Positions 6,678 through 38,748 of a stretch of DNA of 39,233 nt are shown one piece after another. The notes under the pieces are model-generated. The model was not told the DNA's origin. It worked only from the letters and a program-made list of their open reading frames with translations, and searched no databases. The stretch lies in IMG/VR virus record IMGVR_UViG_3300032217_001070, positions 1 through 39,233 of that record. The stretch is one strand, 5' to 3'. Both the position numbers and the translations under genes were made by a program. The DNA comes from a virus. Numbering within the stretch: position 1 is the first letter of the stretch; the number at the start of each line of letters is the position of its first letter.

Positions 6678-8177
6678 ATGGCAACAGCATTTAACCTAAG
6701 CGTACCTAATGTAAATCTAACGTCCGAGCTTAATGCTCAGACGACAAACAGTGATTTTCTCCCTAAACTTTGGAAGAAAGGCGTACAGATTAGCGAGGCT
6801 CAGGAGGATTACTTCAATGATTTTGAAGGTGGTTCTCAGAACTCTCCTATTATGTCTGTCACCGATCTTGCCAAAGGCGCAGGGCAGAAAATCACCTTCC
6901 GGACAATGGCCCAGTTGTTCGGTGACGGTGTTCAGGGCGACGAGATCGTAGGATCGAACGTCGAAGAGTTTCGAGTCGGGAGCTATACGCTCTCGGTCGA
7001 TTACCTCCGGCATGCGGTCAGCTACAACATCCGGACAGAAGATCAAACCGGTTTGATGACCGAACTTAAATCTAGCATCCCCAACTTGCTAGGTAATTGG
7101 CTCGGAAAAAAGAAAACCGAACGTCTTTTGAAGATGTTCATTCACAAAGGCAACGCTGAAAACACCGTTCGCCCTAATAACAAATCCAGTACGGATGCTC
7201 TTCGTAGCTCCGACATTCTGGACATGAATAACATCACTACCTTCGGACAGCAGATGAGAACCCGTGGCGCAAAACCCGCCATCGTTGGCAAAGTCGGTAA
7301 GAATACCGTTAATGCCTTCACTTTCATCTCGACTGGCGAAGGCTTGTTGTCGTTGAAGAATTCTTCTGACTACAAGCAAGCACTTCGTGACGGTGGACTC
7401 CGTGGTGATGAAAATTACATCTTCAAAGGTGGATTTTCCAACATCAACGGCCACGTAATCCGGTCTTATGACCCGATTGATCACGACGGATGGGGGCCGG
7501 TTGGCTCTCCTCTGAATGCTAAGGCATATTTGGGTGCTGATCTAACCACTGCTCCGACTGCTTCCTTCGGTTTGAAGGGTGGCGGATCGACTTCTGCTGG
7601 TGATAAGACTGCTCCTAAATACTTCGAGTTCTTCTCGAATTACGCCTACAAATGGTCGCCGGATGATGCTCTGAGTGCTGGAAGTACCGACAAATACGTC
7701 CTCATCTATAACCTTTCGGGTACGGATGCTGGAAAGTATTGCCTCTACTCCTACACAACGAATAACGGCAACCAGTTGACCATTACTGGCGCACTCAAGA
7801 AAACCACGGACACTGCCGGAGCCTATCTGAAGGCAACTATCGGTGCGGTATCTGCTGACGCCTCAACTGGCGTTTGGGCAAATGCCAACCTGAGCCGGCA
7901 ACACCCCGTTGGTTCCCTCATTGTGGAAACCAACAGTTCCGGTGTTCCGATTGGTCGTACTGTGGTTCTCGGAGCTTCCTCGGCCCTGCGTGGCTACGGA
8001 CGCTTCACGAACGAGCGTACCGAAGAAATGTTTGACGGTGATTTCATCCGCAAGGTGTATATCACTTCGATCTTCGGTCAGACTCCGTTCCAACGTCCCG
8101 ACGGGCGTTACCCGAACTATGCAGTCGTAGAACATGCGATTGCCTACGCCGGTCTGAACCTCCCAGTGATCAGCTAA
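6678..8177 (+). CDS. Major capsid protein, N4-gp56 family
   Basis: 499 aa. The N-terminal third carries the family pattern: a SVTDLAKGAGQKITFR strand, then GDGVQGDEIVGSN and VEEFRVGSYTLSVDYLRHAV, followed by a long helix with KKKTERLL. These correspond to the HK97-fold capsid subunits of the N4-gp56 family. It has the clearest Shine-Dalgarno sequence in the window (AGGAGG at 6665-6670, 7 nt before ATG), expected for the most abundant virion protein. Two hairpins lie upstream and a strong hairpin lies downstream, so this gene is probably expressed at a different level from its neighbours. Confidence 0.87.
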   Translation: MATAFNLSVPNVNLTSELNAQTTNSDFLPKLWKKGVQISEAQEDYFNDFEGGSQNSPIMSVTDLAKGAGQKITFRTMAQLFGDGVQGDEIVGSNVEEFRVGSYTLSVDYLRHAVSYNIRTEDQTGLMTELKSSIPNLLGNWLGKKKTERLLKMFIHKGNAENTVRPNNKSSTDALRSSDILDMNNITTFGQQMRTRGAKPAIVGKVGKNTVNAFTFISTGEGLLSLKNSSDYKQALRDGGLRGDENYIFKGGFSNINGHVIRSYDPIDHDGWGPVGSPLNAKAYLGADLTTAPTASFGLKGGGSTSAGDKTAPKYFEFFSNYAYKWSPDDALSAGSTDKYVLIYNLSGTDAGKYCLYSYTTNNGNQLTITGALKKTTDTAGAYLKATIGAVSADASTGVWANANLSRQHPVGSLIVETNSSGVPIGRTVVLGASSALRGYGRFTNERTEEMFDGDFIRKVYITSIFGQTPFQRPDGRYPNYAVVEHAIAYAGLNLPVIS

Positions 8178-10058: not shown

Positions 10059-10613
10059 ATGGAAAACATCATCCCTCTTTCAGACCTAGATAATCTAATC
10101 ACTGAAACGATTCAGCAGATTAAGGTTGGTATTGTTGGTGCAAGGCAGTACGCAATCGCTGAACTTCCTGAGAAGGTTGATTTTGAGATGAATCTAGTAC
10201 GGGGTTGGCAGGATTCTTCTTACGCACTTCAAAAAACAACGTCTAAGACTGGAACTGCCAACCAAAACCAAAGCTCTACAAATACCGGAACACAGGGTCA
10301 GGTAAGCACTGAAACTGGTGGCGTTACAAGAACTAGCGCAGGAACTAGCACCGGAACCAGTACCGGAACTAGCACGGGAACGAGTACCGGAACTAGCACG
10401 GGAACGAGTACCGGAACTAGCACGGGAACGAGTACCGGAACTAGCACGGGAACAAGTACTGGAACTAGCACAGGAACGAGTACCGGAACTAGCACAGGAA
10501 CCAGCACCGGAACTAGCACTTCGACCAGCACCGGAACCAGCACCGGAACAAAAACAGACACTCAGAACAATAGTTATTCTTATGGTCAAGCTGACGGGAT
10601 AATGGGCAACTAG
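10059..10613 (+). CDS. Ser/Thr/Gly-repeat protein with (STGT)n stalk
   Basis: 184 aa. Residues 1-55 form a plausible folded or helical head (amphipathic DLDNLITETIQQIK). From about residue 92 to 164 the protein is an almost perfect run of Ser-Thr-Gly-Thr units with one STST variation, then a short polar tail ending YGQADGIMGN. The run is encoded by a 12-bp tandem repeat. Such mucin-like segments are extended, and Ser/Thr could be glycosylated; a glycosyltransferase and sugar epimerase lie 5 kb upstream in the same operon. Likely a spacer or stalk in the virion. No family can be named. Confidence 0.65.
   Translation: MENIIPLSDLDNLITETIQQIKVGIVGARQYAIAELPEKVDFEMNLVRGWQDSSYALQKTTSKTGTANQNQSSTNTGTQGQVSTETGGVTRTSAGTSTGTSTGTSTGTSTGTSTGTSTGTSTGTSTGTSTGTSTGTSTGTSTGTSTGTSTGTSTSTSTGTSTGTKTDTQNNSYSYGQADGIMGN
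10332..10549 (+). repeat. 12-bp tandem repeat encoding STGT units
   Basis: About 18 degenerate copies of a 12-bp unit of the type ACCGGAACTAGC / ACGGGAACGAGT. Third codon positions vary among copies while Thr-Gly-Thr-Ser is kept, so the array is under protein-level constraint and not simply a recent slippage product. Confidence 0.9.
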
Positions 10614-10624
10614 AGGGCAAATAT

Positions 10625-11056
10625 ATGGATGGCAACGATTACGTACTTAAACTTGAGACTCTAAGCAGTAATTCCAATGAGAACCGGAATGAGAACCGGA
10701 ACGAGAATCGGAATGAGAATCGAAACGAAAATAAAAATGAGAATAGAAATGAAAACCGGAATGAGAACAAAAACGAAAACCGGAACGAAAACAGGAACGA
10801 AAACAGGAACGAGAACCGGAATGAGAACCGGAATGAGAACCGGAATGAGAACAAGAACGAGAACCGAAATGAGAACCGGAACGAGAATCGGAATGAGAAC
10901 GAAAACCGAAATGGGAATACGAGCGTAACTACAAATAAGAACGATAACAGTGTTCAGAATAGCAATTCAAACTCAAATGAGAATGCCACTGAGTCAGAGA
11001 AAGCTAATCTGGCTTGCGTATGCAAGTTCTCGGTAGCAATTAGAGGAGGGTTATGA
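10625..11056 (+). CDS. Asn/Glu/Arg-repeat protein (NENR)n
   Basis: 143 aa. A 17-residue N-terminus (MDGNDYVLKLETL) leads into 18 consecutive NEN(R/K) tetrapeptides (residues about 18-90) and then an Asn/Ser-rich segment and a compact C-terminus with ACVCKFSVAIRGG. Acidic and basic residues alternate every second position with Asn between, giving a charge-balanced, very hydrophilic chain that could be an extended or self-associating filament. It lies between the STGT protein and the fibre gene, overlapping the latter as ATGA, so it is probably a virion component. I recognise no family. Confidence 0.62.
   Translation: MDGNDYVLKLETLSSNSNENRNENRNENRNENRNENKNENRNENRNENKNENRNENRNENRNENRNENRNENRNENKNENRNENRNENRNENENRNGNTSVTTNKNDNSVQNSNSNSNENATESEKANLACVCKFSVAIRGGL
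10676..10918 (+). repeat. 12-bp tandem repeat encoding NENR units
   Basis: About 18 copies of a 12-bp unit of the type GAGAACCGGAAC, with synonymous variation (AAT/AAC, CGG/AGG/AGA/AAA). The unit shares the 8-mers ACCGGAAC and GGAACGAG with the STGT array 130 bp upstream, but is read one base out of register. Confidence 0.9.
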
Positions 11057-13260
11057 GCCTAAATACAACTGTACCAACGAATGTAGATGACACGTATGCA
11101 GTGCCATCTTTGCCGGTTGAAAATGTATCAAACAAAGAAGATAAGGCAAACAAGGGCATAGCAAATGGCTACGCCCCGCTAGACGCAACAAGCAAAGTTC
11201 CATCTGCAAACCTTCCAGCCATCGGCGATGCTTCTGGTCTAATCACAACACATAACTCAGCCACTACATCGGTTCACGGAATTGCGAACACGGCCAATCT
11301 CGTTCTGACCACCGATGCAAGGCTTTCCGACACAAGAGATCCCAAAGCACACACTCATGCAATTTCTGATGTAACAAACCTACAAACTACCTTGGATGGC
11401 AAACAAAATGCTGGTAGCTATGCCTCAGCAACGCATAGCCACGGAAACCTAGCAAATGATGGCAAAGTTATTGTTCCATACGGAGGCATTATTTCTGCAA
11501 CTGGCGTAGATGCTGGCTCATTCTCAGATGGCACATTCCCAATGATTCAAGGGGCCGGATCGGGTGGCGTTATCACAATAGCAAGCGGGGTAATATCTGT
11601 AATAAGTGCTGGAAGTGGCTATGTGGATGGACTTGCCACAAAAGCTGGTGGGAGCAGATATAACCTAGTAACTCAGGCTACTCAAAACGCTTCTACCAAT
11701 CTTCCCCTCATCACGACAACCGGTGGTGCGATAACTGCCGGCTCATTCGGAACTACGCCCAATAGCTTCTGCCAAGGGAATGACTCACGCCTTTCTGACC
11801 CAAGAACTCCTACTTCTCACACCCACGCACCTTCTGAAATTACTGGAACTGCCGTTGTAACATCTGACCTTTCAACTCACTCAGCGACTACTACATCAGT
11901 TCACGGAATTACTGATTCAAGCCAACTCGCATACAAAGGTGAAGCCTCAAACTTGTTTCATAGAAACATATTTGGATGGCCGTCAAACTCAATGGCATCG
12001 CAGAAAGGCACTAGGCAAAGTTTTTATACACCAACAACAAGCCCAGTCTTTTTTGATGGAACAGAGGGATGGTCATCAAACTCACGACCGATTTACTATG
12101 TGCCAGTTTTTATAAAGAACTCTGCATCTGGATCATTTACGTTAAGAGTCCCAGTTAAAAACTACTCTGGAAACATTTCGTCAGCACTTTTCTCAGCAGA
12201 TACATACGTAGGAACAGGACACATGGCCCTAGTGAAGGACTTAGGCACTGCTACCGCACTGCCTGAGGACGAATCATGCTACATAACCAGTTCTAGTGTA
12301 ACTGTATCTAGGGGATGGCACTTTGTAGCTTTATACTTTGACGCAGATCCCCTTGGCAAAATATGGAGATCTACCTATGATCCAAGCTCCATCCACTTTG
12401 CAGAGCATTTGTTTGATGCCCTTCCTAGATCGTATAACGACTTTGACTCAACTGAAAAAAGAAGGAGAATTGCAAGCGTAATTCGGAGGGTTGATGCTTC
12501 TCCTACTTGGCCTCCATCAACATCTTCCGCCCCAAAGATCATAAATAACGTCGAGTCTCCAACTGCAAGACTTGTTTATCAATTAAACAATCCTGACGGA
12601 ACCGTGGCAGTATCAAACACAAGTCAAATTAGACCGTCTTACATGGATCCAATCCTTGACTTCGCCACTAACGGAACCTCGCCTACAAGAGTAAATGATG
12701 GAGGCCCAACAAGCCCAGCAATTCTTAGCACTGCGTCACCAAGCACCCAAGGCGGGTACAACTTGCTTGCTTCGGCAAAGTCCGGAGCCATTGATCTTGC
12801 AAATAGTACGTACTTTTCATTCCCAATTACACCTCTGTCTGCTGGCCTAACAATCACTGCTGTTCAACTTTCATCCAGATCAACCTCAACAGGGCCGACA
12901 GGAGTAACGATACGGATAGAATCCAACAACAATGCGACTAGCGCATCAGCACCTTCAGTTGTGCCGATTACTTCTACATGGTCATCAGTTACCCTTTCTG
13001 GATCAATATCTCTTGTCGGTACATGCAATCTAAAGGTATATGGTTATGGAGGCACTGGGCCTACAAGTGTTGGCAACTGGAGAATCGATGCACTTGAAGC
13101 TAGAGGAACATTTAAGGTTCCTGCAACACCGGCAAATTGGACTGGACAAGACGCATCGTCACATTTCTTTGCATTCAGCGAAGTAGTTCCTTTTTTCCAT
13201 TGGGGATTCAATAGCTTAACTACGATTGGAACAGTAAATCCAAGCCTACAAGGAGTATAA
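11053..13260 (+). CDS. Tail fibre / receptor-binding protein
   Basis: 735 aa. The first 300 residues carry fibre repeats: SATTTSVHGI appears twice (near residues 74 and 275), and ARLSDTRDPKAHTHAISDVTNLQ is echoed by SRLSDPRTPTSHTHAPSEITG. DGKQNAGSYASATHSHG is a typical collagen-like/fibre shaft element. The C-terminal 400 residues look like a beta-rich receptor-binding head. It is more AT-rich than the capsid gene. It is coupled by ATGA to the NENR protein, so the repeat proteins and fibre are likely made and assembled together. It ends immediately before the tandem structured elements. Confidence 0.78.
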   Translation: MSLNTTVPTNVDDTYAVPSLPVENVSNKEDKANKGIANGYAPLDATSKVPSANLPAIGDASGLITTHNSATTSVHGIANTANLVLTTDARLSDTRDPKAHTHAISDVTNLQTTLDGKQNAGSYASATHSHGNLANDGKVIVPYGGIISATGVDAGSFSDGTFPMIQGAGSGGVITIASGVISVISAGSGYVDGLATKAGGSRYNLVTQATQNASTNLPLITTTGGAITAGSFGTTPNSFCQGNDSRLSDPRTPTSHTHAPSEITGTAVVTSDLSTHSATTTSVHGITDSSQLAYKGEASNLFHRNIFGWPSNSMASQKGTRQSFYTPTTSPVFFDGTEGWSSNSRPIYYVPVFIKNSASGSFTLRVPVKNYSGNISSALFSADTYVGTGHMALVKDLGTATALPEDESCYITSSSVTVSRGWHFVALYFDADPLGKIWRSTYDPSSIHFAEHLFDALPRSYNDFDSTEKRRRIASVIRRVDASPTWPPSTSSAPKIINNVESPTARLVYQLNNPDGTVAVSNTSQIRPSYMDPILDFATNGTSPTRVNDGGPTSPAILSTASPSTQGGYNLLASAKSGAIDLANSTYFSFPITPLSAGLTITAVQLSSRSTSTGPTGVTIRIESNNNATSASAPSVVPITSTWSSVTLSGSISLVGTCNLKVYGYGGTGPTSVGNWRIDALEARGTFKVPATPANWTGQDASSHFFAFSEVVPFFHWGFNSLTTIGTVNPSLQGV

Positions 13261-13268
13261 AAAAGAAC

Positions 13269-13391
13269 ATGAGTCATAATAACGGGCGTGACAAGATAGG
13301 TGGACAACCATCTCAGCCGGCTAACCAATGCATAGGTACTTATGCAGAGGCGATCCTGTTTTCTTGTGTGTACCCACGCCCGTTATTATGA
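13269..13391 (+). CDS. Possible 40-aa ORF inside structured element copy 1
   Basis: ATG at 13269 opens a 40-codon frame (MSHNNGRDK... to ...YPRPLL) ending in TGA at 13391. The N- and C-terminal codons lie in the two arms of the 19-bp stem. No good ribosome binding site is present, and an open frame of this length is not improbable by chance. The two copies encode identical residues across the shared part. Listed as a possibility only; the RNA structure explains the sequence better. Confidence 0.22.
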   Translation: MSHNNGRDKIGGQPSQPANQCIGTYAEAILFSCVYPRPLL

Positions 13392-13393
13392 CT
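13272..13393 (+). ncRNA. Tandem structured RNA element, copy 1
   Basis: A 122-nt element closed by a perfect 19-bp stem (13272-13290 with 13375-13393). Inside are P2 ACAAGA/TCTTGT (13291-13296 with 13362-13367), P3 AGGTGG/CCATCT with ACAA tetraloop (13298-13303 with 13308-13313, one G-U), and P4 TGCATA/TATGCA (13329-13334 with 13341-13346). The P4 loop GGTAC (13335-13339) can pair with GTACC (13370-13374) to form a pseudoknot. The G-U in P3 would be an A-C mismatch on the other strand, so plus-sense RNA is favoured. It does not match any RNA class I recognise. It lies between fibre and lysis genes in the late operon. Confidence 0.72.
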
Positions 13394-13415
13394 TTGATCT
13401 AACATAAAAAAGAAC

Positions 13416-13574
13416 ATGAGCCATAATAACGGGCGTGACAAGATAGGTGGACAACCATCTCAGCCGGCTAACCAATGCATAGGTACTTATGCAGAGGCGA
13501 TCCTGTTTTCTTGTGTGTACCCACGCCCGTTATTATGGCTTTCATCTAATATGAGTTACAACCGGCTTAAATGA
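13416..13574 (+). CDS. Possible 52-aa ORF through structured element copy 2
   Basis: Same frame as in copy 1, but the A-to-G change turns the TGA stop into TGG, so the frame runs on through LSSNMSYNRLK to a TGA at 13572-13574. That stop overlaps the ATG of the holin-region gene at 13571 as ATGA, the start arrangement used by most genes in this phage. The downstream gene has no Shine-Dalgarno motif, so it may depend on ribosomes arriving through this frame. This makes copy 2 more likely than copy 1 to be translated, though chance remains possible. Confidence 0.35.
   Translation: MSHNNGRDKIGGQPSQPANQCIGTYAEAILFSCVYPRPLLWLSSNMSYNRLK
13419..13540 (+). ncRNA. Tandem structured RNA element, copy 2
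   Basis: Same fold as copy 1: 19-bp closing stem 13419-13437 with 13522-13540, and identical interior. The closing stem keeps perfect pairing because the U-A pair of copy 1 (13274-13391) is a C-G pair here (13421-13538). The P4 loop contains the self-complementary GTAC, so copies could also contact each other by loop-loop kissing. Function unknown. Options include mRNA processing or stability signals, a packaging or assembly RNA, or a DNA cruciform. Confidence 0.72.
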
Positions 13575-13837
13575 TTGACATGAGTACTTCAGACAGAAAG
13601 AACATATCGGACGTTCGTGAGAGGCTTGCTCGCCTTGAGGAGCGAATCATCACGATTCAATCCGTTCTTGAGAAGAACACATCCGAACTGGCTGAATGGT
13701 CGGCAAAGGTATCTAGCCGGATTGAGTCCCTAGAACGTCTTAAATCCTATGCACTTGGCTTTATTGCCTTTGCTTCACTTGCGTTAAGCTACGCATACGA
13801 GTGGATAAAGATTAAGTTTTGGGGACAGCAACCATGA
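13571..13837 (+). CDS. Coiled-coil plus membrane-anchor lysis protein (XhlA-like)
   Basis: 88 aa. Residues 10-55 form a heptad coiled coil (VRERLARLEERIITIQSVLEK) followed by one transmembrane helix near residues 62-80 (YALGFIAFASLALSYAYEW) and a short basic tail. This resembles the XhlA-type proteins encoded beside holins. It begins the lysis block directly after the tandem elements, with an ATGA overlap at 13571-13574. A second in-frame ATG lies at 13580. Confidence 0.6.
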   Translation: MIDMSTSDRKNISDVRERLARLEERIITIQSVLEKNTSELAEWSAKVSSRIESLERLKSYALGFIAFASLALSYAYEWIKIKFWGQQP

Positions 13838-14436: not shown

Positions 14437-14777
14437 GATTTCTAAGGAAGATTCAGGGGTTTTGGGCATTCGTATCGGCTTTAACCCTTTTCGTCGTTTC
14501 AAGGCCGGTTATCCAGAACCTAGATCCTAGTGCCGGATCTACGGATTTCGGGGTACTTCATGCCCTTGTTTTCGGCGTATGCGTATTTCTACTTTCCATC
14601 GCCTTAGCCTTTTTCGTCGTTAGCTCGGAGTTCCCGACGATTGACGAACACATGGACTCAGGCCGGTTTTTGCAGGATTGGAGATCAATTAACTCCCGCA
14701 CACGGGTAATTGTGACGGTTTGCGTAGTCTTAGTTCTTTTCTTTGGGGCAATTCTCTCAATCCGGAGTGGGTTATGA
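14433..14777 (+). CDS. Holin-like three-segment membrane protein
   Basis: 114 aa from the GTG at 14433, which overlaps the previous stop as GTGA. Three hydrophobic segments are visible (about residues 11-23, 42-62 and 91-110), a small size and a polar middle loop. It lies directly upstream of the endolysin, so a holin that permeabilises the inner membrane is the best reading. The endolysin starts 1 nt after its stop. Confidence 0.6.
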   Translation: MRFLRKIQGFWAFVSALTLFVVSRPVIQNLDPSAGSTDFGVLHALVFGVCVFLLSIALAFFVVSSEFPTIDEHMDSGRFLQDWRSINSRTRVIVTVCVVLVLFFGAILSIRSGL

Positions 14778-14778
14778 C

Positions 14779-15282
14779 ATGCGATTACTCCTCCGGATCA
14801 TGGTGGTCACGGCCCTCTGTGGATCGTGTTGGGCAGGAGAAAGGCAGGACGTGCTTAATTTCGCACGTTCGTTTCTTGGGGTTAAAGAAGCGACAGGAAA
14901 GAATGATGGCCCTGAGGTCGAGGCTTTCCTTGAGTCCGTTGGGCTTTCTAAGGGGGATCCTTGGTGCGCTTCATTCCTCTATTACGTTTTTTCCAAGAGC
15001 AGTACTGCGGTTGTACCGAGGTCTGGTTGGTCGCCTGATTGGGTATCCGGAGGCAAACGGCCAACTGCCGGAGTCCTTCCGGTTGCCGGAGTGTTTGGAA
15101 TCTGGTTCGAAAGCCTACGACGAGTGGCACATGTGGGCATTATCGAAAGAAATGAAGGTCAATGGGTATTCACTATCGAAGGGAATACGTCACCGGAGGG
15201 AAGCAGGGACGGGAACGGATGCTATCGGAGACGACGCCTAGTTAAGCAGATCTACAAAGTTAAGGACTACATCCATGAGTGA
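14779..15282 (+). CDS. Secreted endolysin, CHAP/NlpC-P60-like peptidoglycan hydrolase
   Basis: 167 aa. Residues 1-19 are a Sec signal peptide (MRLLLRIMVVTALCGSCWA, cut before GE). The papain-like catalytic residues are visible: Cys63 in GDPWCASF, His118 in RRVAHVG and a polar third residue in EGNTS (134-138). This matches CHAP/NlpC-P60 amidase-endopeptidases that cut peptide stems. Export by Sec means the holin would trigger or activate and not simply release it. An upstream in-frame ATG at 14743 lies inside the holin gene and lacks a signal-peptide start, so 14779 is preferred. Another frame through this gene (14720-15241) is a shadow. Confidence 0.82.
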   Translation: MRLLLRIMVVTALCGSCWAGERQDVLNFARSFLGVKEATGKNDGPEVEAFLESVGLSKGDPWCASFLYYVFSKSSTAVVPRSGWSPDWVSGGKRPTAGVLPVAGVFGIWFESLRRVAHVGIIERNEGQWVFTIEGNTSPEGSRDGNGCYRRRRLVKQIYKVKDYIHE

Positions 15283-21540: not shown

Positions 21541-21902
21541 GTACTAAAAATAGTTGTTGTCAGAATCCGGACGCCGGTACTATTGAAACTGTGAACGAAA
21601 AAAACCTCCCCGCCGGCCCCACCGAGAATGACGTCATGAGCAGACTCTTGGCCCTTGAAAAAAAGACTTCGCAACTCATCCCTAAAACTTGGCAGGAACG
21701 GGTGGACGAACTGGAAAGCATGGGAATGACGACGAGCGATGCCCAAGGTGCGATAGATGTCGAAATCATGGAAGGATGGAGGCCCAGCGACTTTCAGCCT
21801 TGGATGCTGGTTCCCATGATGACAACGAAAAGCTATGATCCCTACGAACCCCGTGAATACAATGACGCCGAGGGCGTCACAACCATGGGAGATCTAGGAT
21901 GA
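21537..21902 (+). CDS. Hypothetical early protein with internal leaderless start
   Basis: 121 aa from the ATG at 21537 (ATGA overlap). An internal promoter-like module (21554-21583) places a leaderless GTG at 21591 in the same frame, so a shorter form starting MNEKNLPAGP is likely. Residues after this match the start of the gene at 22938 (NEKNLPA). The C-terminal REYNDAE matches the C-terminus of the next gene. The protein therefore looks assembled from exchangeable end modules. Function unknown. Confidence 0.6.
   Translation: MSTKNSCCQNPDAGTIETVNEKNLPAGPTENDVMSRLLALEKKTSQLIPKTWQERVDELESMGMTTSDAQGAIDVEIMEGWRPSDFQPWMLVPMMTTKSYDPYEPREYNDAEGVTTMGDLG
21554..21583 (+). promoter_or_regulatory. Internal early promoter module
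   Basis: TTGTTGTCA at 21554-21562, TACTAT at 21578-21583, TGAAACT, then GTG at 21591. It lies inside the coding frame of the 121-aa gene, so a second transcript and a shorter protein are predicted. Confidence 0.55.
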
Positions 21903-22900: not shown

Positions 22901-22930
22901 TTGTTGTCAGTTTCGTTGCGTCACGACTAT
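22901..22930 (+). promoter_or_regulatory. Early promoter module before 185-aa gene
   Basis: TTGTTGTCA at 22901-22909, GACTAT at 22925-22930, TGGAATC, then GTG at 22938. The DNA from the motif into the coding region is clearly related to the module at 21554; both run into GTGAACGAAAAAAACC. Confidence 0.62.
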
Positions 22931-22937
22931 TGGAATC

Positions 22938-23495
22938 GTGAACGAAAAAAACCTCCCCGCCACCGGCCCCGCCCCCACCACTGAGCAACTTGCCGAGGCC
23001 CAACGCCTCCGCCAGTCTGCTCTCCAAAACGAACGGGAGGCCGAGGCGTCCTTCGAACGGTGTGACACGGATGGGTTCCTGAGCCAGTGGGCCAGCCGGA
23101 TTTCCGCCGAGGTGGACGAGAAAAACGCCATGATCCTTGAGAATGGCGGGATGATGGAGTTTCCTGCGGTTTTCACTCTGGACGGAAAGTTCCAGCCGGC
23201 AGTCCGGTGTGTGACTCGGTACGGCACGGCATGGAGTCTGACCGATGCCTCCGGAACGTTCCTTCAGCCTCCGGTGTTCTTGCCCTTCTCTCCCCAGCGG
23301 GAATCCACCATCAAAAACAAGGGATACACGATTGGGGCCGTCATGCGCCCAGCGGTTGCCAAAATCGTGACGGAAGGGAAGAGGGCCGTGGTCGCCATTC
23401 GGCCCCTTGGCCGGTACTCCGACGCCCCTGCCAGTGTGATCTCCACGGACATCTTCAAGGAAGAAACAAAAAACCAAAAAGGAGGACAGACATGA
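22938..23495 (+). CDS. Hypothetical early protein, leaderless GTG start
   Basis: 185 aa, starting MNEKNLPATG, which matches the internal start of the 121-aa gene. An N-terminal helical, Glu/Ala/Arg-rich part (LAEAQRLRQSALQNEREAEA) is followed by a beta-rich domain (FPAVFTLDGKFQPAVRC; AVVAIRPLGRY). GC content is higher than in neighbours. The start is set by the promoter module 7 nt upstream. No known family. Confidence 0.64.
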   Translation: MNEKNLPATGPAPTTEQLAEAQRLRQSALQNEREAEASFERCDTDGFLSQWASRISAEVDEKNAMILENGGMMEFPAVFTLDGKFQPAVRCVTRYGTAWSLTDASGTFLQPPVFLPFSPQRESTIKNKGYTIGAVMRPAVAKIVTEGKRAVVAIRPLGRYSDAPASVISTDIFKEETKNQKGGQT

Positions 23496-26692: not shown

Positions 26693-27415
26693 ATGAGCGA
26701 CAAAGAAATTGCAGTAAAGAGTGAGAACACGATTCGGGAACTGATCGGATCCGACGAGTTCAAAAAGAAGATTTCCGATGCCCTGCCAAAGCACCTGACG
26801 CCGGAACGGTTCGCACGGGTGGCGTTGATGGCGATTAACAAGACGCCGGCCCTGCTGAATTGCACCAAGCCGAGCCTCTTTCAATGCTTGGTAGATCTTG
26901 GGGCCATGGGCCTAGAACCGGATGGGCGACGGGCGCACCTGATTCCCTACGGCAACGTGGCTACTCTGGTGGTGGACTATAAGGGGATCCTTGACCTGAT
27001 CATGCGGTCAGGCCACGTCTTATCGATCCATGCCGACGTCGTTTGCGAGGGCGACGTTTTCGAATACGACCTTGGCGAAATCAAACAGCACAAGATCGAC
27101 TTCCGGAAGGATCGTGGGGCCGTTATTGCGGTCTATTGCATGATCCGTATGAAGGACGGATCGAACAAGTGTGAAGTCATGACAAAGGCCGACGTCGAAT
27201 CGATCCGGTCACGTTCCAAGGCCGGTAAGTCTGGCCCTTGGGTTACGGACTGGAACGAGATGGCGAAAAAGACGGTATTCCGACGTGCATCCAAGTGGGT
27301 TCCGCTTTCTCCGGAAGTGCGGGATCAGATCGAACGTGAGGACGTCCACCAGTTTGCCGGTAAAGCGTCGAGCATACCGGTTGTTGCAACACCCATCTTT
27401 GAGGAAGCAAAATGA
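26693..27415 (+). CDS. recT: RecT-family single-strand annealing recombinase
   Basis: 240 aa, the usual length. Family signatures: ERFARVALMAINKTPALLNCTKPSLFQCLVDLGAMGLEPDGRRAHLIPYG and VVDYKGILDLIMRSG, then YDLGEIKQHK, the central pattern of RecT/Bet-type annealers. It coats single-stranded DNA and promotes annealing during phage recombination and replication. AAGGAG lies 8 nt before the ATG. It is coupled by ATGA to a PD-(D/E)XK nuclease that may supply the exonuclease partner. Confidence 0.9.
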   Translation: MSDKEIAVKSENTIRELIGSDEFKKKISDALPKHLTPERFARVALMAINKTPALLNCTKPSLFQCLVDLGAMGLEPDGRRAHLIPYGNVATLVVDYKGILDLIMRSGHVLSIHADVVCEGDVFEYDLGEIKQHKIDFRKDRGAVIAVYCMIRMKDGSNKCEVMTKADVESIRSRSKAGKSGPWVTDWNEMAKKTVFRRASKWVPLSPEVRDQIEREDVHQFAGKASSIPVVATPIFEEAK

Positions 27416-36287: not shown

Positions 36288-37018
36288 TCTTTTCCCCAAG
36301 GATCCGGTTTCTTTGCGAGGAACGTTTCAAAGGGGTTATCCCTGAGCCTTACCCAGCAAGTCAGTTTCTTCCGGATTGGTACAAGAAACTTCCCCACCGT
36401 ACCGGCAATCAGGGGTTAAGCAAAGGGACAGTCAAGAGATGCGCCCCATTCCTAGATTCTCTTTCCGCCGGCTTCATCATTCCTCTTGCCGGTGACGTCG
36501 AACTTGTCTCAACCGAGAAAGGTTCGATAGTTGCAACGGACAGTGCCTTCCCATCGAAGATCATAGGGATGCACCAACCTTGGCAGTTAGGTGGCGAGGC
36601 TCATCCATCGCATCCGGCGCAACCCCTTAAGTTCTCAAACTTCTGGCATATCCATGTTCCCGCCGGTTGGTCGGTGTTGTTCGTGCCTCCCCTAAATAGG
36701 GCAGATCCTAGATTCGAGTGTTTTTCGGCAATCGTTGAATGCGACAAGTTCAAGAATCAGATTAACTTCCCGTTCGTACTTAAGGATCCCAAGTTTTCCG
36801 GAATCATTGAGCAGGGAACACCGTTGGTTCAGGCTATTCCATTCAAGCGGTCGGAAATGGGCGGGAGACATGTTTGCGGGACGCTAGGCAAGAAGGATCT
36901 TGCAGAGATCCAGAAAACAAAACTTAAAATGGATGCCCATGAGTCTTATTACAGGGATCAGGTTTGGAAGAAGGAAGAGAAGAGTCGATGCCCGTTTCAC
37001 AGGATCCTTGGTTTATGA
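36284..37018 (+). CDS. Conserved phage protein of unknown function
   Basis: 244 aa. The sequence SQFLPDWYKKLP followed by TVKRCAPFLDSLSAGFIIPL is a strong motif I associate with uncharacterised proteins of marine and freshwater phages (a beta-barrel-like family, similar to DUF6065). A His cluster (GEAHPSHP; FWHIHVP) could bind metal. It directly precedes the large terminase with an ATGA overlap, unlike the usual small-terminase position. The enzyme role is unproven. Confidence 0.55.
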   Translation: MIFSPRIRFLCEERFKGVIPEPYPASQFLPDWYKKLPHRTGNQGLSKGTVKRCAPFLDSLSAGFIIPLAGDVELVSTEKGSIVATDSAFPSKIIGMHQPWQLGGEAHPSHPAQPLKFSNFWHIHVPAGWSVLFVPPLNRADPRFECFSAIVECDKFKNQINFPFVLKDPKFSGIIEQGTPLVQAIPFKRSEMGGRHVCGTLGKKDLAEIQKTKLKMDAHESYYRDQVWKKEEKSRCPFHRILGL

Positions 37019-38748
37019 GTTTGGATTCAGTAATCGAAACGAGTCCGGCACTCTGGATGGCAACGTCTGGAATCATTAAGAACAAGGCCGGCAATCTAGT
37101 TAGGCCCAAGCCGAATGATTTCCAAAAGTTTGTTTCGGAAGTGATTGAGTGGTGTATCGAAAACAACGAGCGTCCTAGAATTGTAATCCTTAAGCCTCGT
37201 CAAAAGGGATCCTCAACGGTTTCTTGCGCTTGCGTCTATACGTTCTTGCGTCGCTTCTCCGGAGCTAGGTGCGCTTTGATTGGGGATGAGTTGGATACGT
37301 CAAACAATCTTGCGGAAATCTTCAGCCGGTATGCAGACATGGACGATCACGTATGGGGCAACGAATGGCATAAGACTAAGTTGGCATTCTCAAACGATTC
37401 AAGTTGTCACAAGGAAACGGCAAACGATCCACGGGCCGGCATGTCATCCACCTTTCAAGTCGTCTTGGCGTCCGAGGTGGCACACTGGAAGAAGCGGGGA
37501 GAACGGAATGCCGAAAGCGTACTTCTTTCGATCCTGAATTGCGTACCCGATGAGCCTAAAACCTTGGTTATTGTCGAATCCACCCCAAACGGGGCATCCG
37601 GCGCATTCTATGAGAGATGGCAAAAGGCAGTATGGTTTGAAGATTTCAAAAAAGGAAAGAAGGGGAACGGTTTTATCCGTGTGTTTTGGCCTTGGTATTC
37701 ATTTGCGGATTCGGTCGAGACGTTACCGGCTCAGAAAGAAGAGGAAATTAAGGAATCCCTCACGGATTCTGAGAGGAATCTGATGGGTTTGGGTGCGACG
37801 ATACCGAATCTTGCATGGCGTCGCCGGATCGTGGGTGAGAAATGCGGTGGAGATGCCGAGCTTTTTAATCAGGAATACCCCACCGACGACGTTTCATGCT
37901 TCTTAACGTCTGGCCGGCCAAGGTTTGACCGGTCAGGGGTTGAAAGGATCGAGGTTCTTACCAGAAAGAAGCAGAGAACAGAGGGTGTTCTGGATCCTTC
38001 CGGTAATTCGGTTGTGTTCCGGCCTACCGGATCCGCCGAAGCGTGGCTATGGCTATGGGAAAAGCCTGAGTACGGTCGCCGGTATTTGATTGGTGTCGAT
38101 ACCATGACAGGGGCGAGTCAGGTAGCAGGATCCACAAGGGAGCCGGACTGTCATTCAGTGATAGTTTTGGCATCCGGAGCTTTCGTATCAGGCAAATGGA
38201 TCCCGCCTTCCGTAGTTGGGAGGTTAAAACCACCTTGCAGGGTGGATATTGACGTTCTGGCCCTATTTGTGGACAGGCTTTCAAGGTTCTTTGGTGGTTG
38301 CATGGTCGTTCCAGAGGTAAATAACTCCGGATTGGCCCTAATCGAACTACTTAAGGATGCTCAAACGCCGATTTACCAACGTGAAATCTTCAATTTACGT
38401 GAATCCAAGAAGGCGAAGGCACTTGGATGGCAAACAACCGAAAAGACAAGGACGCTAGCAATAGAAACACTAGCCACGGCAATCAGAGACGGGGATATGG
38501 ATGGTGGCGGAATCAATATCTATTGCCCAAACATCCTTTCCGAACTTAAGACATTCGTAATTACGGACTCCGGCAAGGCCGAGGCGATGAGTGGGAATCA
38601 CGACGACGATGTTTTGGCTTTATCAATCGCAATAGCGACAATCGATGGCGCAACTCCCTATCTTGCACCGTCATCAACGAGAGGACTACCAAGGGATCTG
38701 CTCAACGCAGAGAAATCCATACAGGCAAACCGCAGAAGCTATGCTTGA
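37015..38748 (+). CDS. terL: Terminase large subunit
   Basis: 577 aa from the ATG at 37015, chosen for its ATGA overlap; in-frame ATGs at 36988 and 36964 are possible. ATPase: Walker A-like KPRQKGSST (60-68), Walker B with catalytic Glu in LASEVAHW (about 141-148), coupling motif ESTPNG (178-183). RNase H-fold nuclease: D352 (YLIGVDTMTG), E424 (VVPEVNNSG) and HDDDVLAL (519-526), all intact. It pumps DNA into the procapsid through the portal and cuts it. The GWQTTEKTR segment before the last motif is typical. Confidence 0.93.
   Translation: MSLDSVIETSPALWMATSGIIKNKAGNLVRPKPNDFQKFVSEVIEWCIENNERPRIVILKPRQKGSSTVSCACVYTFLRRFSGARCALIGDELDTSNNLAEIFSRYADMDDHVWGNEWHKTKLAFSNDSSCHKETANDPRAGMSSTFQVVLASEVAHWKKRGERNAESVLLSILNCVPDEPKTLVIVESTPNGASGAFYERWQKAVWFEDFKKGKKGNGFIRVFWPWYSFADSVETLPAQKEEEIKESLTDSERNLMGLGATIPNLAWRRRIVGEKCGGDAELFNQEYPTDDVSCFLTSGRPRFDRSGVERIEVLTRKKQRTEGVLDPSGNSVVFRPTGSAEAWLWLWEKPEYGRRYLIGVDTMTGASQVAGSTREPDCHSVIVLASGAFVSGKWIPPSVVGRLKPPCRVDIDVLALFVDRLSRFFGGCMVVPEVNNSGLALIELLKDAQTPIYQREIFNLRESKKAKALGWQTTEKTRTLAIETLATAIRDGDMDGGGINIYCPNILSELKTFVITDSGKAEAMSGNHDDDVLALSIAIATIDGATPYLAPSSTRGLPRDLLNAEKSIQANRRSYA

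Follow-up and report, generated by a model that had tools for sequence, protein, structure and literature searches.

A tandem pair of perfectly closed hairpin elements at the fibre-lysis junction of a temperate tailed phage, a possible transcript-processing site

The phage record IMGVR_UViG_3300032217_001070 of IMG/VR, whose full 39,233 nucleotides were analysed and are called the window here, carries two nearly identical 122-nt elements between its fibre gene and its lysis genes. What are these elements, and does the single compensatory difference between them mean that an RNA structure is under selection? Judged from its gene content, the record is a temperate tailed phage, with genes for a portal-like protein (2–1360), a capsid protein (6678–8177), a phage integrase (25090–26199), RecT (26693–27415) and a terminase (36964–38748). 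A search for relatives of the terminase as a guide to the host gave distant terminases only, and this route was dropped. The elements follow a tail/fibre-like gene (11053–13260), of which the N-terminal part is common to relatives and the distal part is unique. They precede a small gene (13571–13837), whose relatives begin at the equivalent of position 13580 (ATGAGTAC), and, further downstream, an endolysin-like gene (14743–15282), as an initial sequence-only reading had placed them. Both flanking genes are on the + strand. Just upstream of the fibre gene, two adjacent genes (10282–10931) contain 12-bp repeats in long arrays, seen as NENR and similar repeats in the proteins, and these repeat parts align poorly between relatives. 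Elsewhere in the window, a 61-bp near-repeat (21554–21614 and 22901–22961; 79% identical) ends in AACGAAAAAAACCTCCCCGCC.

The two copies, both read on the + strand, extend from 13272 to 13393 and from 13419 to 13540, with an offset of exactly 147 bp. Each is closed by 19-nt arms of perfect complementarity, which are located at 13272–13290 and 13375–13393 in copy 1 and at 13419–13437 and 13522–13540 in copy 2. The 84-nt interiors between the arms (13291–13374 and 13438–13521) are identical. When coordinates and complementarity were recomputed, the copies, their offset and their closing stems all agreed with the sequence-only reading. The inverted pairs in this stretch are all made by the same stem arms. 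The true repeat unit is 147 bp and larger than the element, as it spans the fibre stop codon through the 25-nt spacer; the first unit (13257–13403) is 97% identical to its direct repeat (13404–13550). Together the two units, 13257–13550, amount to a simple tandem duplication. No third copy was found elsewhere in the 39-kb record, where the element occurs as the tandem pair only.

Alignment of the copies also confirmed that the 122 nt hold just two differences, T13274/C13421 and A13391/G13538. These positions are stem partners, so that a T/A pair in one copy is a C/G pair in the other. Two further differences (G13395/C13542 and C13400/T13547) are in the 25-nt spacer. Thus, the 147-bp units differ at four positions, of which two are mutual partners in the stem, two are in the spacer and none is in the interior. 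For two differences placed at random over the 122 nt, the probability of meeting in a pair is 0.0026, even before a match of letters is required, which makes an independent accident unlikely. However, template switching between inverted arms can introduce a matched change in a single event and, with no selection acting on RNA, can preserve perfect stems (PMC8794818). Because one such DNA repair event yields the same result, the compensatory pair is not direct evidence for selection, and calling it so overstated what one pair in two sister copies can tell. Such a pair does not distinguish selection from template switching.

The long stem far exceeds what chance would give. The RNA folds of the two copies have z-scores of -6.6 and -5.8, with none of 200 shuffles as stable. 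On both strands, dinucleotide shuffling of either copy yields much weaker folds, and folding as DNA likewise gives a strong result (z -7.9). A survey of 2.3 Mb of further viral and bacterial DNA for perfect inverted repeats of 19 bp or longer, separated by 40–150 nt, turned up a single case, in the viral contig L086. The interior is different. Further helices, which had been proposed for it, do appear in the minimum free energy (MFE) fold, where a 6-bp helix extends the stem, two hairpins form, and a loop may pair with a bulge over 5 bp (GGUAC/GUACC). They are, however, no better than those of shuffled sequences and lack comparative support: the interior folded alone is ordinary (z -0.79), and when the real arms were kept and the interior was shuffled, 336 of 1000 shuffles reached an equal or better energy. 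The GGUAC/GUACC pseudoknot is at most faintly suggested by the modelled fold, as a loop match of at least 5 arises in 42 of 1000 shuffled interiors. The interiors carry no covariation information, since they are the same in both copies. Finally, the joint fold of both copies has an MFE of -120.5 kcal/mol, compared with -114.7 kcal/mol for the separate folds. The copies could therefore pair with each other, and even the local fold is a prediction.

By sequence and model searches, the element is without proven relatives in phages, plasmids, the records of its relatives and the bacterial genomes sampled. BLAST against phages and plasmids gave chance-level matches only, and sequence searches of the relatives' records did not find the element. 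The exact stem-arm pattern occurred at 14 loci in viral contigs, none with the second arm at the right distance, and the two-arm pattern had no match in bacterial genome contigs. Patterns of the interior hairpins gave no match in one search and 8 loci in another, none of which was scored by the element's covariance model. This model recovered the window's own copies as a positive control and detected nothing beyond the window in the relatives, the candidate loci and 644 genomes sampled from two bacterial phyla. All these searches speak for records other than those near-identical to the window.

Comparisons with known classes agreed with the earlier statement that the element matches no recognised RNA class. 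No Rfam family scored above its gathering threshold in the window, and a permissive search gave only microRNA-precursor noise far below the cut-off. ARAGORN found no tRNA or tmRNA gene in the window. An intrinsic terminator was rejected, as the 19-bp stem is followed by TTGATCTAAC/TTCATCTAAT and not by a U tract; the hairpins that a terminator scan detected inside the element were all short and weak. MITEs and bacterial palindromic repeats, such as ERIC and Correia, are about 120 bp long, have terminal inverted repeats and lie between genes. Similar to them, the element is of this length, intergenic and bounded by inverted repeats. Different from them, it has no target-site duplication beside either copy and no dispersed copies in the window, the relatives or the 644 genomes. 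These findings also speak against a transposon end, which the sequence-only reading had named as an observation that would count against its proposal. An integron attC site was rejected because the RYYYAAC and GTTRRRY core sites are both absent from the element.

The other long repeat, at 12633–12761 of L086 (- strand), raised the possibility that the element belongs to an unrecognised class of structured RNA in which the closing stem varies and the interior, with GGCGATCCTGTTTTC after a hairpin, is conserved. In L086 a 26-bp perfect inverted repeat encloses this 15-nt motif, and its interior of 77 nt is similar in length to that of the window copies. As in the window, the motif is located just after a hairpin and a few bases before the 3' arm. 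Such repeats are rare, with a chance of roughly 1% that one encloses the motif among the about 230 motif sites listed, and by the hairpin directly before the motif L086 ranks 4th and the window 7th of 216 distinct sites, roughly a 3% event. Against this class, none of the other motif sites listed has such a repeat, and no closing stem was found among the motif matches listed from genome contigs. The similarity between L086 and the window is confined to the motif, outside of which they are not alignable (p 0.99), and the match extends exactly as far as the query, whose ends were chosen arbitrarily. With filters off, the covariance model built from the window only gave L086 27.8 bits, most of which comes from the inverted repeat alone because the other strand also scored 21.9. 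Moreover, a box within the arms of L086 recurs in the sequence flanking them in that contig, suggesting a local origin. The arms and genomic context of L086 also differ from those of the window, and homology is unproven. We regard membership of a common RNA class as improbable, and a new mobile class of phage RNA with a conserved core and a freely varying long stem, first represented by the window pair and L086, is more doubtful still. A terminase search for relatives of L086 returned only L086 itself. Within 12520–12870 of L086 (- strand), each arm of the 26-bp repeat contains the box (TGCCACTAG/CTAGTGGCA) once, and three more boxes flank the repeat on either side, spaced by 20 bp on one side and by 10 bp on the other. 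This array is upstream of the terminase genes and is possibly an origin or an operator array.

Three related contigs, L118, L119 and L120, share with the window, at high identity, the tail genes upstream of the element and the genes on its lysis side, where protein identities are 84–100%. Their distal fibre sequences differ from that of the window, their fibre stop codons abut or overlap the start of the next gene, and the element is absent. The window's distal fibre had no relative in either phage collection searched. The element sits exactly at the boundary where the fibre modules differ between relatives. Given that the relatives without it carry other distal fibres and that the window's distal fibre is without relatives, exchange of the fibre 3' module probably brought the element in. 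Encoding a RecT-type annealing protein and an integrase makes module exchange and repeat duplication plausible in this phage. The CTAATATGAGT just past the element matches the fibre-lysis junction of L120, which would fit a leftover of the donor junction. At 13546–13570, CTAATATGAGTTACAACCG resembles the same junction of L120 (CTAATATGAGTACGACCG), as if a decayed second start of the downstream gene had remained.

What the element does is most readily, although tentatively, explained by its position. As the genes on both sides are on the same strand, it is probably transcribed as part of the fibre-lysis mRNA, which would fold into two stems of 19–20 bp, each with a loosely folded loop of 84 nt at its end. 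These stems may act in cis as a double-stranded site for RNase III-type processing or for stability, parting the fibre message from the lysis message, or may uncouple the two genes by breaking the tight stop-start junction that the relatives have. The element would have come with the exchanged fibre 3' module and been duplicated later, its arms staying perfect through template-switch copying, selection or both. The long stem is perfect in both copies without a terminator-type U tract behind it, its two differences preserve pairing, and the predicted 19–20 bp with the 6-bp helix provide the about two helical turns of double-stranded RNA that RNase III requires. Phage intercistronic RNase III processing hairpins of the T7 type have a long paired stem between same-strand late genes. 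The element resembles them in its paired stem, in its same-strand late genes and in its predicted transcription; it differs in the 84-nt loop that its stem closes and in its tandem duplication, and both transcript and cleavage are predictions here. RNase III cleavage at this stem is proposed by this analogy. Against a cis-acting hairpin, no homologue shows conservation, the interior is no more stable than shuffles, one template switch explains the compensatory pair equally well, and the copies may pair mutually.

Nearly tied with the cis-acting hairpin is a palindromic insertion without function that the fibre module brought in and slippage duplicated, its arms being kept identical by template switching (quasi-palindrome correction). 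This is a serious possibility that nevertheless falls short of being probable. In its perfect arms the element is similar to hairpins generated or maintained in this way, and one mutation followed by one template switch turns T/A into C/G in a single correction (PMC8794818). That study inferred the process from trees in rRNA and other RNA genes, whereas no tree is possible for the element. The absence of the element from all three relatives covering the junction, the lack of homologues and the ordinary interior fold are also as expected of such an insertion. The unchanged interior beside two spacer changes argues weakly against it (about 0.03–0.08 by chance), and a useless insert of nearly 300 bp between compact late genes would be unusual for a phage. 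A site acting in DNA, where a cruciform or single-strand hairpin would serve recombination, for instance as an exchange point for fibre modules, would suit the strong DNA fold and the exact position at the module boundary. It is an unlikely explanation, as the relatives differ at the same boundary without the element, attC core sites and target duplication are both absent, and no protein partner was identified. Least credible is a small gene, for which the frame is open in both copies (40 codons at 13269–13391; 52 codons at 13416–13574, overlapping the next ATG as ATGA), starts with ATGAGY like many genes of the window and has AAGGAG upstream in copy 1. Its codon score of -0.10 is lower than in any in-frame stretch of 40 codons from the other genes, and the peptide was rejected on this codon usage. 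A protein search of the phage collection gave no significant relative, and perfect palindromic arms are unexpected in coding sequence.

The locus provides a clean worked example that a lone compensatory pair in sister repeats is not enough to separate selection on RNA from template-switch repair. If the element is functional, this phage would separate the expression of its fibre and lysis genes by duplicated processing hairpins that were gained together with a new fibre end.
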